Shown here: piece by piece, positions 1,600 through 41,139 of the stretch
How positions within the stretch are numbered: position 1 is the stretch's first letter
Layout of the letters: every line of letters begins with the position of its first letter
Source of the DNA: Aptenodytes patagonicus
Taxonomy: Eukaryota > Chordata > Aves > Sphenisciformes > Spheniscidae
DNA: 64,000 nucleotides
Assembly (NCBI RefSeq): GCF_965638725.1
Contig: NC_134970.1
Location: 4,469,001-4,533,000, forward strand
Direction of reading: 5' to 3'
Notes under the pieces: model-generated
What the model saw: only the letters and a program-made list of their open reading frames with translations
What the model was told of the DNA's origin: nothing
Database searches by the model: none
Program-made: the position numbers and the translations under genes

Positions 1600-12698
<11,099 letters not shown>

Positions 12699-12755
12699 GG
12701 CCGCGGCGCTGACACCAGGCCCCACCGGAAGCGCTCCGCAAGCAGGGAAGCGCGG

Positions 12756-12975
12756 GCGCCATCTTGGGAGGGGCCCGCCGCACCTCCTCGGGCGGCCATC
12801 TTGGGAAGGGCAAATGCGGGGCTCACGCCGCCGCCTCCGTCCTCACGGTCGGCGCCATGTTGATAAGGGAGGCGGGGAACGAGCGCCATATTGAGAAGGT
12901 CGAGGGAAAGCGCTGCTTCCCGGATACCGCTCCCGCCATTTTGTGAAGGCAGGGTCGCTGATTCCGCCATGTTGG
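12756..12975 (+). promoter_or_regulatory. cluster of six YY1-like motifs
   Basis: Six copies of the core GCCATnTTG are all in the same orientation, at about 12758, 12795, 12853, 12885, 12936 and 12966 (n = C, C, G, A, T, G). Most are preceded by CG. The reverse complement, CAAnATGGC, is the YY1 consensus. Spacing alternates between about 30-37 and 50-58 bp. They sit just upstream of the LEMD2 start in the CpG island. The motif match is seen directly; YY1 occupancy is inferred. Confidence 0.65.
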
Positions 12976-36461: not shown

Positions 36462-36822
36462 ATGAATGGGACAGAAGGTAGCAATTTTTATGTGCCTGTG
36501 TCCAACAAGACAGGGGTGGTGCGAAGCCCCTTCGAGTACCCCCAGTATTACCTAGCCGAGCCCTGGAAATACCGTGTCGTGTGTTGCTACATCTTTTTTC
36601 TCATCTCCACCAGTTTGCCCATCAACCTCCTCACCCTCCTGGTCACCTTCAAACACAAGAAGCTCCGGCAGCCGCGCAACTACATCTTGGTCAACTTGGC
36701 GGTGGCTGACCTCTTCATGGCCTGCTTTGGCTTCACGGTCACCTTCTACACTGCCTGGAACGGCTACTTCGTCTTCGGACCCGTTGGCTGTGCCGTGGAG
36801 GGCTTCTTCACCACGCTGGGAG
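36462..36822 (+). CDS. RH2: RH2 exon 1: N-terminus to helix 3 start
   Basis: Encodes residues 1-120 and one base, starting [20 protein letters not shown]. It contains both N-glycosylation sequons, helix 1, helix 2, Cys110 and Glu113. Ser51 and Arg72 (QPRNY instead of QPLNY) depart from positions nearly invariant in visual opsins. Donor is gtaagg. Confidence 0.97.
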
Positions 36823-39800
36823 GTAAGGGCTGTGGGGTGGGAGCTTGGGTCTAAGGGCCAGGCTTGGCAGCAGGTGATCTTGCTTCTTCAGGGCTTTAAG
36901 ACCCCAATTCCACCTCTTCATCATGCTATTGGGATGGCTGCGATGCATGCAGCATCCCTCCCATGCAGAAAGCCATCTCGCATGCCGCTGTGGTGTCACA
37001 GCTTGTTGCATGGGGCAGAGCTCGCCATGCAAGGCGCTGCTTCCCTGCGGCTTAAAGACAGGGATAAAAAGAGAGATTTATGCAAGTTTGATCTTGATGC
37101 CAAGAAGCGCCCGTCTCACAACTAGCAGGGCAGCTGCAAGGAAATGGATGAGGGAAGGGATCCTTGTTTACAGGATCAAGCCTGGGCTCATCTGGCCACG
37201 CTGCCCAGTGTGCATTCAGGGGGTCTCACACCAAGTTTGCAGGGCTAGCAGAGACCTGCTGGGGATGACCACATCATGCCCTTGAATCAATGTCCAGCAT
37301 CTTCGCCAAAAGCCTTTTCTTGGGAAAAGGTGAAGCATTTGGGAGGGTTCGGGGAGGGAAGAGACATCCCTTGGGAGAGGGACCACTCGGGAGAGGGACC
37401 CTGCAGAAGGGGTACGGGCATGGGGAGGAGGAGTTGAAGACAAGGAGAGGGGTCACAGCTTATCTAGGGGCAAAAGGAAGATGTGGCAGCTCTTAACCAG
37501 AAGAGAAGAGCAGCAGCGTGGAGGGGAAGGAGGATTCAGGGTTGCACAAAGCTAGGAAAACCAGGCCCAGGCTTTGCAGCAATTGCTCAGCCCTTGTCCC
37601 AGTTGCACCCGATTTGGGTGCCCTTGGGAGCTTCCTTATTTCGCTTCTCAGGGACGTGAGAGTTGCCAACGCTTCACCCTGCAGAAAGTCCCTGTGCAAA
37701 ACAGGGAAAATTCATTTTGCACCCCAGGCCCACACAACACCTCGTGATGGATCTGACAACTGCTAATCCTTGCTGCAGAGATCCATAACCACTGCAAGGA
37801 CTTCACTTTTTCTCCCCTAAATGGGGCGATTTCCTGCAACGATGCTGATCTGAAAAAAAAAGAAAAAGAAAAACGAGACAGATGGATATTCTGCCAGACA
37901 AAAGCAAAGCTAAATGTCCTGATCTAAGCCAAGGACCGAGGAAGGGCTTGGTCTCGGGGTCAGAAGATCATATGGGCCTGCGCTATTTCTGATCAAGTGA
38001 GCCTGTGGGCTTTCAGGCAGCATTACTTGCCCTTCCAATGTTCGTGTCTGGTAAAGAACAAGGAGGCTCCTGTTCACAGGGAAGAAAGTTTGATGGGAAG
38101 CAGTCACTGCGCGAGCAGCAGGTCTCCAGCGAATCCTGGCACAGGGTGTAGTTATCAGCAGATTATCACAGCTGGGGGCATTAGCAGGCTTACAGCACCA
38201 ACTAAACACTCCCAATCCCCTGAAGTTTAATTATCCCTTATAAACACATGTGCACACATGCCCACCCACACAGCCTCCCCCGTACGCCTCCCCCTGATCC
38301 AGCACTGCCGGAAGACTCATGAAATACACATTTAAAGGCATCAACAGGTTTGGACACATCTGGCATCTTTGCTGGAAATTGTGCTTCCTCGCGCCCAGGT
38401 GGAATTCACCCCCTTGATTTTTGAATTATTAAAAAACCATTATGATCCCCCTCCTCCATCACCAGCATCGGCACAGACGCTCCCCTCGGCTCCCAGACCT
38501 TTTGCACACTACGGCCGGGAGATTCTCAGTTATTGAATAGGATGCCGGTTATCCCCTGCTGATCCCCAACCCCTTGGCCCTCTCTGCTCTTTGCTGTGAC
38601 CATGAGACCATGAAGGGAAGATCAAGCCCAGAGGAGCTCTTACCACCACCGTATGCTCTCTTTTTCTCTCCCTCCTGCAGGCCAAGTCGCCCTGTGGTCC
38701 CTGGTTGTCTTGGCCATAGAACGCTACATCATCGTCTGCAAACCCATGGGAAACTTCCGCTTCTCCGCAACCCACACCATGATGGGCATCGCTTTTACCT
38801 GGGTAATGGCCTTTTCCTGTGCCGCTCCACCCCTCTTCGGCTGGTCCAGGTGAGTCGAAGGATGCTCAGCGGCAGCCCCGGCTGCTGTGCAAACACTCCA
38901 GGGGACAGGAGATGCACTCGTGGCTCAGACGTGAAACTCCCTGGGCTCCAGGCAAGAAGGGCAATGGGGCGAGTCAGAACAGAAATGGGACCTCAGCTGT
39001 CAGTCTCATGATGGCTTGATGTCCCCTAACCAACGGCAGCCACAGGCTCAGCATCTCCAGCTGCAATGGCCCTTCACGCTCCTTCTGTTCTGCAGAGAAA
39101 GAGGGGCTTCGATAGGCACGGCTCGTCTCACCCATGCTGTGAAGAGCCCATTTCCCTCTGCAGACCATAAAGAGCATCTGGATGACCAGGCCAGCAGGCA
39201 AGGCTGCTCTGGGGAGGCAAACCTGGCCTTGCTGATGTGCTGCCACCCCAGCATTGCTCCTGGGAGCCCTGCAGCACCTTTCCCAGCACCCTTGCCCCAC
39301 TCTCCCCGCGAGCCCATCTGTCCTGCTCCCAGCATCACAGCACATTTCAGCCCCCAACCAACAAATGCCCCCCAACTATAACAGAGGCAACGCTGGCTGC
39401 TCACACCACAAGCTGCTCACTGGGCTTCAGCAAGCGTGTCCTCCGGGCAGCTAAAGCCCAGGTCTGGCTCTTGCATGCACCCACATCCCTGGTCAGGAGC
39501 CGATGCAGCAGCCAAAGGCCACCAGGAGCAGAGCGTAAGGGAGGAGCTGAGGAGATGGAGGTAATTTCTCTAATGCTGCAGGTCCAGCCCCTCCTGACAC
39601 CCCGCTGCAGAACTGCCCTGTGGGGTCATAGCAAGCTCCTACCAGCCCTCTGGGCATGTGCAAGAGCTGGCTTTGGGGCAGCAAAGTCCCTTTACCATCC
39701 ACCTGCAATGAGGCACAGCTGGATGGTCCCTCTCCAGCCTTGAATTGGGATCCCTGCCCAGGCAGCTGGTCCTTGGCTCCCAAGCAGACCTGAGCTGCAT

Positions 39801-41139
39801 CCCTTTGAGCCAGGGCCCCTCCAGACACAGGCTATGCGTCCCTCCACCCCGTGCAGCAGCGGGGACAAAGCCCTCAAGAGCTTGGACCCACCAAGCTGGT
39901 GGCTCTCGTTCCCGCTCGGCATCCCTCCATCTGCAGAGGGAGAACAGGTGGCTCCCGGCAGGCAAGTGCTCAGCCACGTAGGAAGGAAATAAATAGCCCG
40001 TTCCCCGTGGGAGGGAGCGAGTGTCACAACAAACTGATGCTATGCGCCCAAGTGCAACATGTCGGCATGGCTTGCTGCCGGCCCCGAAGGAGCCGCGCGC
40101 TGCAGAGCCAGCCAGGCCGGGTGCACAGGGCGCAGAGGAGAAGCCAGGGAGGAGCTCACCCAAAACACACATGCCACTCTTCGAGCATCCCCCATCCTTG
40201 GGGAATTTGGGCCTCAGGTTGAACCCCTCCCGTGTTCCCCAGGGAGGGTCCTGGTGAAGATCCTAACCTTTCTTGCTGGCAGATACATGCCGGAGGGGAT
40301 GCAGTGTTCCTGCAGCCCTGACTACTACACCCACAACCCTGACTACCACAACGAGTCCTACGTCCTCTACATGTTCGTCATCCACTTCATCATCCCGGTC
40401 GTGGTCATTTTCTTCTCCTACGGGCGCCTCATTTGCAAAGTTCGAGAGGTAACGTCGGGAGGAGGCATGGGAGGCTAACAGGGACAGGGTGGGCGGCTTG
40501 GGCAGGAGAAGGGAGGTGGTCCCGGGGCAGAAAGCTGTGGGGTGCCCCTCACCACCCTCCCTGCCCGCAGGCAGCTGCCCAGCAGGAGGAGTCGGCCATG
40601 ACCCAGAAGGCTGAGAAGGAGGTGACGCGGATGGTGATCCTCATGGTGCTGGGGTTTATGCTGGCCTGGACGCCCTACACCTTGGTGGCATTCTGGATCT
40701 TCACCAACAAGGGAGCGGACTTCACTGCCACGCTCATGTCAGTGCCTGCCGCCTTCTCCCTCTACAACCCCATCATCTACGTCCTCATGAACAAACAGGT
40801 GAGATGCCCCATGTCATGCAGGGTGAGCCTCTGCCCTTGGCTTACCGGCACGTCTGGGGTCACCGCAGGCACCTTGCTCTTTCCCAGAAGTGGTTGAATC
40901 TCAGCCTTGGGGGGAGCAGCAAGCTCAGGGGCTGTTGGGGGCTCTTGGTCCCACAGCACGTCCTCGCTGGCCCCCAATGCCATCGTTCTCTGTTTCTCTC
41001 CCCTCTTCAGTTCCGTAATTGCATGATCACTACAATCTGCTGTGGCAAGAACCCCTCTGGGGATGAAGACATCTCTGCCGTATCCCAGAGCAAGACTGAG
41101 GTCTCCTCCATCTCTTTCAGCCAAGTGTCACCTGCATAG
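36462..41139 (+). CDS. RH2: RH2 green cone opsin lacking the retinal-binding lysine (whole gene)
   Basis: RH2 is the medium-wavelength cone visual pigment, a seven-helix receptor of photoreceptor outer segments. Exons are 36462-36822, 38681-38849, 40283-40448, 40571-40798 and 41011-41139, with lengths 361, 169, 166, 228 and 129. The first three equal the vertebrate rhodopsin pattern; exon 4 is 12 nt shorter than the usual 240. The sum is 1,053 nt, or 350 residues plus stop, against about 355 in chicken. Seen intact (bovine numbering): Asn2 and Asn15 sequons, Cys110 and Cys187, counterion Glu113, Gln122, ERY 134-136, NPIIY, palmitoyl Cys pair and the C-terminal VSPA signal. Missing: Lys296, lost with about three neighbours; helix 7 reads [10 protein letters not shown] where chicken has VPAFFSKSSSLYNP. 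Gly51 is Ser and Leu72 is Arg. All splice sites and the frame are intact. It is expressed-looking but cannot form the Schiff base, so it is probably non-functional as a pigment. Confidence 0.96.
38681..38849 (+). CDS. RH2: RH2 exon 2: helix 3 to helix 4
   Basis: Encodes (G)[20 protein letters not shown], then [20 protein letters not shown] and the end of helix 4. The ERY G-protein switch is intact. Acceptor is ctcctgcag, donor is gtgagt; length 169 is standard. Confidence 0.97.
40283..40448 (+). CDS. RH2: RH2 exon 3: second extracellular loop and helix 5
   Basis: Encodes (R)[20 protein letters not shown], then helix 5. Glu181 and Cys187 are present. Acceptor is cttgctggcag, donor is gtaacg; length 166 is standard. 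Confidence 0.97.
40571..40798 (+). CDS. RH2: RH2 exon 4: helix 6 and a shortened helix 7
   Basis: Encodes [20 protein letters not shown], helix 6 with the intact FMLAWTPY motif, and a helix 7 reading [20 protein letters not shown]. The exon is 228 nt where vertebrate visual opsins have 240. The missing 12 nt remove Lys296 and about three following residues without changing frame. Donor is gtgaga. Confidence 0.97.
41011..41139 (+). CDS. RH2: RH2 exon 5: C-terminal tail
   Basis: Encodes [20 protein letters not shown], then a Ser/Thr-rich phosphorylation tail ending QVSPA and TAG. It is one residue shorter than I recall for chicken (ISAVSQ versus VSSTVSQ). The palmitoylation Cys pair and the VxPx ciliary-targeting end are kept. 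Confidence 0.96.

Follow-up and report, generated by a model that had tools for sequence, protein, structure and literature searches.

A penguin RH2 opsin gene without its retinal-binding lysine is very probably a unitary pseudogene with its reading frame still open

Background

The RH2 cone opsin of penguins has been described repeatedly, and its status is disputed in print. The papers of 2014 and 2022 treat it as a pseudogene: PMC4322438 reports Rh2 pseudogenization in Adelie and emperor penguins, and Cole et al. 2022 (PMC9296559) report a 12-bp deletion covering K296 in all penguins, with inactivation on the penguin stem and trichromacy; a review (PMC9944954) again states that penguin RH2 is non-functional. 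The 2015 paper (PMC4595237) instead reads the gene as a working adaptation: there, a deletion of S295-S298 in Adelie and emperor RH2 is argued to be most likely a unique working mechanism, given no further decay over about 23 My.

Two other dim-light birds offer points of comparison. In kiwi, RH2 (OPN1MW) is likewise open but drifting, although there inactivation is attributed to E134K and residue 296 is kept (PMC4511969). Barn owl RH2, described as an early pseudogene, is another case of RH2 decay, one marked by a stop codon and indels (PMC4595237). The locus considered here carries the in-frame K296 lesion placed on the penguin stem by PMC9296559, with no difference in the lesion itself; the 12-bp deletion is already published for penguins. 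To this we add a test that goes against the adaptive reading, L72R as a further change common to the penguins at a conserved position, and a rough estimate that the loss was late; none of these was found in the portion of PMC9296559 available to us.

A five-exon RH2 gene lacking Lys296

The window, meaning the whole analysed stretch of 64,000 nucleotides from Aptenodytes patagonicus (NC_134970.1, positions 4,469,001 to 4,533,000), contains, as read from its letters, an RH2 gene, which encodes the green cone opsin and occupies five exons at 36462-41139 of the plus strand. Exon 1 (36462..36822, 361 nt) starts with ATG and is the exon on which the Pfam domains Rhodopsin_N and 7tm_1 were scored; its codon 72 (36675..36677) is CGC, for Arg. 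Exon 2 (38681..38849, 169 nt) has an intact ERY motif, exon 3 (40283..40448, 166 nt) has AGC at codon 188 (40314-40316; G188S), exon 4 (40571..40798) measures 228 nt, 12 short when set beside the 240-nt exon 4 of RH1 in the same genome, and exon 5 (41011..41139, 129 nt) ends at the stop codon TAG. All four introns start with GT and end with AG, and the joined coding sequence of 1053 nt is open, with 350 codons followed by the stop. Among the best 120 of 747 matches in a protein search, the top match is Uria aalge OPSG, at 91% over the full length; together with the five exons and the two Pfam domains, this similarity identifies the gene, at the level of sequence, as an avian RH2 cone opsin orthologue. 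An Rfam scan of the window gave no match at gathering scores.

The preliminary description had taken this gene to be an RH2 that lost Lys296 through a 12-nt in-frame deletion, with exon 4 of 228 and not 240 nt. The letters at 40741-40770 read as it claimed, and alignments with the RH2 proteins of Uria, Nothoprocta, Pelecanoides and Eremias agree with it: the helix 7 stretch PAAFSLYNP (40745..40771) is missing residues 295-298, Lys296 among them. The deletion junction lies at about 40756/40757, with its placement uncertain by about a codon, and residue 293, adjoining the lesion, is Ala in place of Phe (40751-40753). Among the residues expected of a functional visual pigment, Glu113, Cys187 and ERY are all kept and Lys296 is not; no lysine is left in helix 7 of the window protein ahead of MNKQ at the cytoplasmic end. 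The same description gave the reading frame as open, which it is, and the other exons as normal in length, which does not hold throughout because, in the assembled sequence, exon 5 is one codon short too, at about 41076 (41070-41079, close to residue 335/336). Both other penguins compared keep this codon, and its loss is absent also from the other compared bird RH2 proteins whose models reach that far.

The identical four residues are missing from RH2 of Pygoscelis antarcticus (P0005) and Spheniscus magellanicus (P0007), and are retained in RH2 of the diving petrel Pelecanoides (P0009), whose order is the sister group of penguins according to PMC9296559; P0005, P0007 and P0009, like P0001, carry a partial mark in their annotation, and errors may be present in them. 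Across 119 aligned sequences, Lys296 is kept in 115 of 116 non-penguin proteins. Of the four sequences without it, three are the penguins, with a gap at this position; the fourth is P0116, a model of a fish rhodopsin that carries a low-quality label and has Gln at 296 within a frameshifted-looking stretch. An assembly or sequencing error, by which the 12 nt would be missing from the assembled sequence and not from the bird, was rejected on the ground that two other genera lack the same four residues, as do all penguins in the account of PMC9296559, and we regard its probability as negligible. A second intact RH2 copy was likewise rejected: a search of the assembled sequence, in which 116 of 343 first-look candidates were scored, found none, and the next best locus was RH1, which matches the first exon of RH2 at only 66%. 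That RH1 gene (G000:C8, L039) has an exon 4 of 240 nt and retains Lys296, Glu113 and ERY. Within the same search, then, there is no intact copy elsewhere in the assembled sequence, as a unitary pseudogene implies.

Consequences of the deletion and the open frame

We conclude that the sole RH2 locus found in this penguin genome is very probably a unitary pseudogene that has kept an open reading frame. Lys296 is the site at which retinal forms its Schiff base, and by established opsin chemistry an opsin without it forms no Schiff base with 11-cis-retinal. On this chemistry, removal of residues 295-298 from helix 7 by the 12-nt in-frame deletion would leave no Schiff base and therefore no green cone pigment, and a bird with at most three cone pigments. 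RH2 would afterwards have drifted neutrally, spared stops and frameshifts by chance. In rhodopsin, altering Lys296 also disrupts its salt bridge with Glu113 and can make the protein constitutively active; penguin RH2 protein, if made and folded, might do harm, and silencing or misfolding would be in keeping with that.

Several features count against a pseudogene, namely that the window gene retains its frame, its splice sites, Glu113, Cys187 and ERY and that both of its indels are multiples of three. When neutral mutation was simulated up to 17 replacements, 24-26 substitutions had accumulated, with about 0.76 stops on average, and the frame stayed open in only 6-21% of cases over the settings tried, in which mutation bias and indel ratios are assumptions. 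Given this simulation, the open frame needs no selection to explain it. Lipid scrambling and basal signalling are opsin activities, and the apoprotein might have been kept for a retinal-free role of this kind; the open frame, the intact splice sites and the in-frame indels would all suit such a role, as would the somewhat less random character of the changes seen only in the window relative to those of the two other penguins. Against it stand the chance survival of the frame just given and a pooled site pattern, set out below, that is not distinguishable from random, and we judge a retinal-free role very unlikely.

Where the replacements fall

Each of 355 positions received an entropy value from a set of 107 non-bird RH1 and RH2 proteins. 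A change was then scored, lineage by lineage, wherever a residue occurred in none of the bird RH2 proteins presumed to be functional (n = 5: Uria, Nothoprocta, Pelecanoides, Cygnus and Coturnix). Pooled by site, the penguin changes fall on near-invariant positions at 14 of 47 sites, versus 15.4 expected, with a mean entropy of 0.76, equal to that of random placement (0.76), whereas those of the five presumed functional birds do so at 0 of 34, versus 11.1 expected, with a mean entropy of 1.53 (penguins versus five birds at near-invariant sites, Fisher p = 2e-4). By lineage, the window RH2 has 17 changes, which average 0.94 in entropy and include 4 near-invariant sites where random placement predicts 5.6; Pygoscelis has 24 (0.79; 6, 7.8 expected) and Spheniscus 20 (0.63; 8, 6.5 expected). 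None of the changes in the functional birds is near-invariant (changes and mean entropy: Uria 5, 1.67; Nothoprocta 10, 1.50; Pelecanoides 20, 1.62; Cygnus 1, 2.18; Coturnix 2, 0.78). The lizards Eremias (17 changes, 1.58; 2 near-invariant, 5.6 expected) and Rhineura (31, 1.24; 3, 10.1 expected), which themselves belong to the 107 reference proteins, group with the functional birds, though not at zero. RH1 of the window genome, counted against two bird RH1 proteins, has 0 of 17 near-invariant changes, versus 5.6 expected. Kiwi RH2 (P0014) is penguin-like, with 42 changes, a mean entropy of 0.73 and 10 near-invariant (13.7 expected), and shows the same random pattern of change; penguin changes thus behave like those of kiwi's lost gene, which speaks against the adaptive reading.

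Taken alone, the window gene also differs from the five birds (4/17 versus 0/34, p = 0.0095); with Pelecanoides dropped as a control, the strict cut-off gives p = 0.10 and a looser cut-off p = 0.007. The 12 changes found only in the window have a mean entropy of 1.08, between the random (0.76) and functional (1.53) values. The pattern points to a loss of selective constraint in the pooled penguins and, less strongly, in the window gene by itself.

That the replacements are random with respect to opsin conservation argues against the proposal of PMC4595237 that penguin RH2 remains a working, modified pigment, with a new handling of retinal suited to underwater light. The open frame of the window gene and its retained Glu113 and ERY speak for such a pigment, as does the report in PMC4595237 of no pseudogenizing change in Adelie and emperor RH2. 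The absence of any helix 7 lysine ahead of MNKQ, the replacement R135C within ERY of Spheniscus RH2, and the three cone pigments listed for Humboldt penguins in PMC9944954 weigh on the other side with the pooled pattern, and we consider a working pigment extremely unlikely.

Other changes in penguin RH2

Besides the deletion, a second change at a conserved site is shared by the penguins: all three penguin RH2 proteins have Arg at residue 72, where every one of the 107 non-bird RH1 and RH2 proteins has Leu. We did not find L72R in a penguin opsin in the open-licence literature, as far as its available text extends. Other changes do not follow a single grouping. F293A and V138I are common to the window and Pygoscelis, Spheniscus being without F293A, in conflict with T92M, which is common to Pygoscelis and Spheniscus only, and therefore RH2 alone does not place the window sequence among penguins. 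Pairwise differences are nearly equal (window-Pygoscelis 32/350, window-Spheniscus 33/347, Pygoscelis-Spheniscus 35/348), so that the window sequence probably comes from neither Pygoscelis nor Spheniscus. The annotated RH2 of Spheniscus magellanicus (P0007) is without the last three residues encoded by exon 3 of the window gene, and the splice donor after exon 3 may be broken in that species.

Timing of the loss of constraint

Three replacements, L72R, A117T and V333I, are common to all three penguins and absent from the five birds, and seven further sites are ambiguous between the stem and the lineages, so that the shared replacements number 3 and at most 10. Changes belonging to single lineages number 9, 14 and 14, or 17.3 on average if the ambiguous ones are counted for every lineage that carries them. 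With the crown at 15-20 My and a stem of about 50 My, the dates given in PMC9296559, a gene that was neutral over 40-50 My of stem would be expected to show about 35-58 shared replacements. Three to five shared replacements imply that RH2 was neutral for 2.6-5.8 My of the stem (upper bounds 7.6-13.5 My), and the figure becomes 12-16 My if the seven ambiguous sites are all assigned to the stem (10 shared versus 12.3 per lineage); a crown age of about 23 My, as in PMC4595237, would lengthen these estimates proportionally. The estimates assume one neutral rate and a star-like crown, draw on three protein sequences, and date the loss of constraint and not the deletion.

The few shared replacements, set against 12-17 per lineage, suggest that RH2 lost its constraint only towards the end of the penguin stem. 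We put at about even odds that RH2 stayed constrained through most of the roughly 50-My aquatic stem and was released a few My before the crown, so that trichromacy would have followed the move to sea by tens of My. If this late timing is true, the loss of colour vision in penguins can be dated and treated separately from the origin of their diving habit. Such dating of the penguin RH2 loss was not found in the open-licence literature, within the text available.

Other opsins and neighbouring sequence

The preliminary description had suggested that penguin RH2 deletions were on record and that the lesion would identify the lineage. That literature exists (PMC9296559, PMC4595237 and PMC4322438), and the assembly combines the RH2 deletion with RH1 Pro194 and a broken pinopsin gene, which mark the source as a penguin; this RH1 L-to-P change is reported for penguins in PMC4595237. 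The pinopsin pseudogene (L040, G000:C17:9571500-9577500) is frameshifted in exons 1 and 4, and its ERY motif is changed to GQY. PMC4322438 describes pinopsin with two frameshifts in emperor, which the two found here match, and with one frameshift and a stop in Adelie; PMC4595237 did not observe these lesions in emperor pinopsin.

A search of the assembly with a chicken query did not find SWS1 opsin, the best match being an exon of RH1. The missing gene probably reflects an assembly gap, and its absence is no evidence of loss, because SWS1 was found in 41 of 48 bird genomes in PMC4595237 and because LWS, SWS1 and SWS2 were missed in both penguins of PMC4322438.

Elsewhere in the window, the minus strand has a 668-codon open frame at 10839-12842. 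A LEM domain was assigned to it by Pfam, and inspection by eye suggests a membrane-like stretch close to its end; it is perhaps LEMD2. An imperfect 90-bp tandem repeat at 11682-12115 overlaps this frame.
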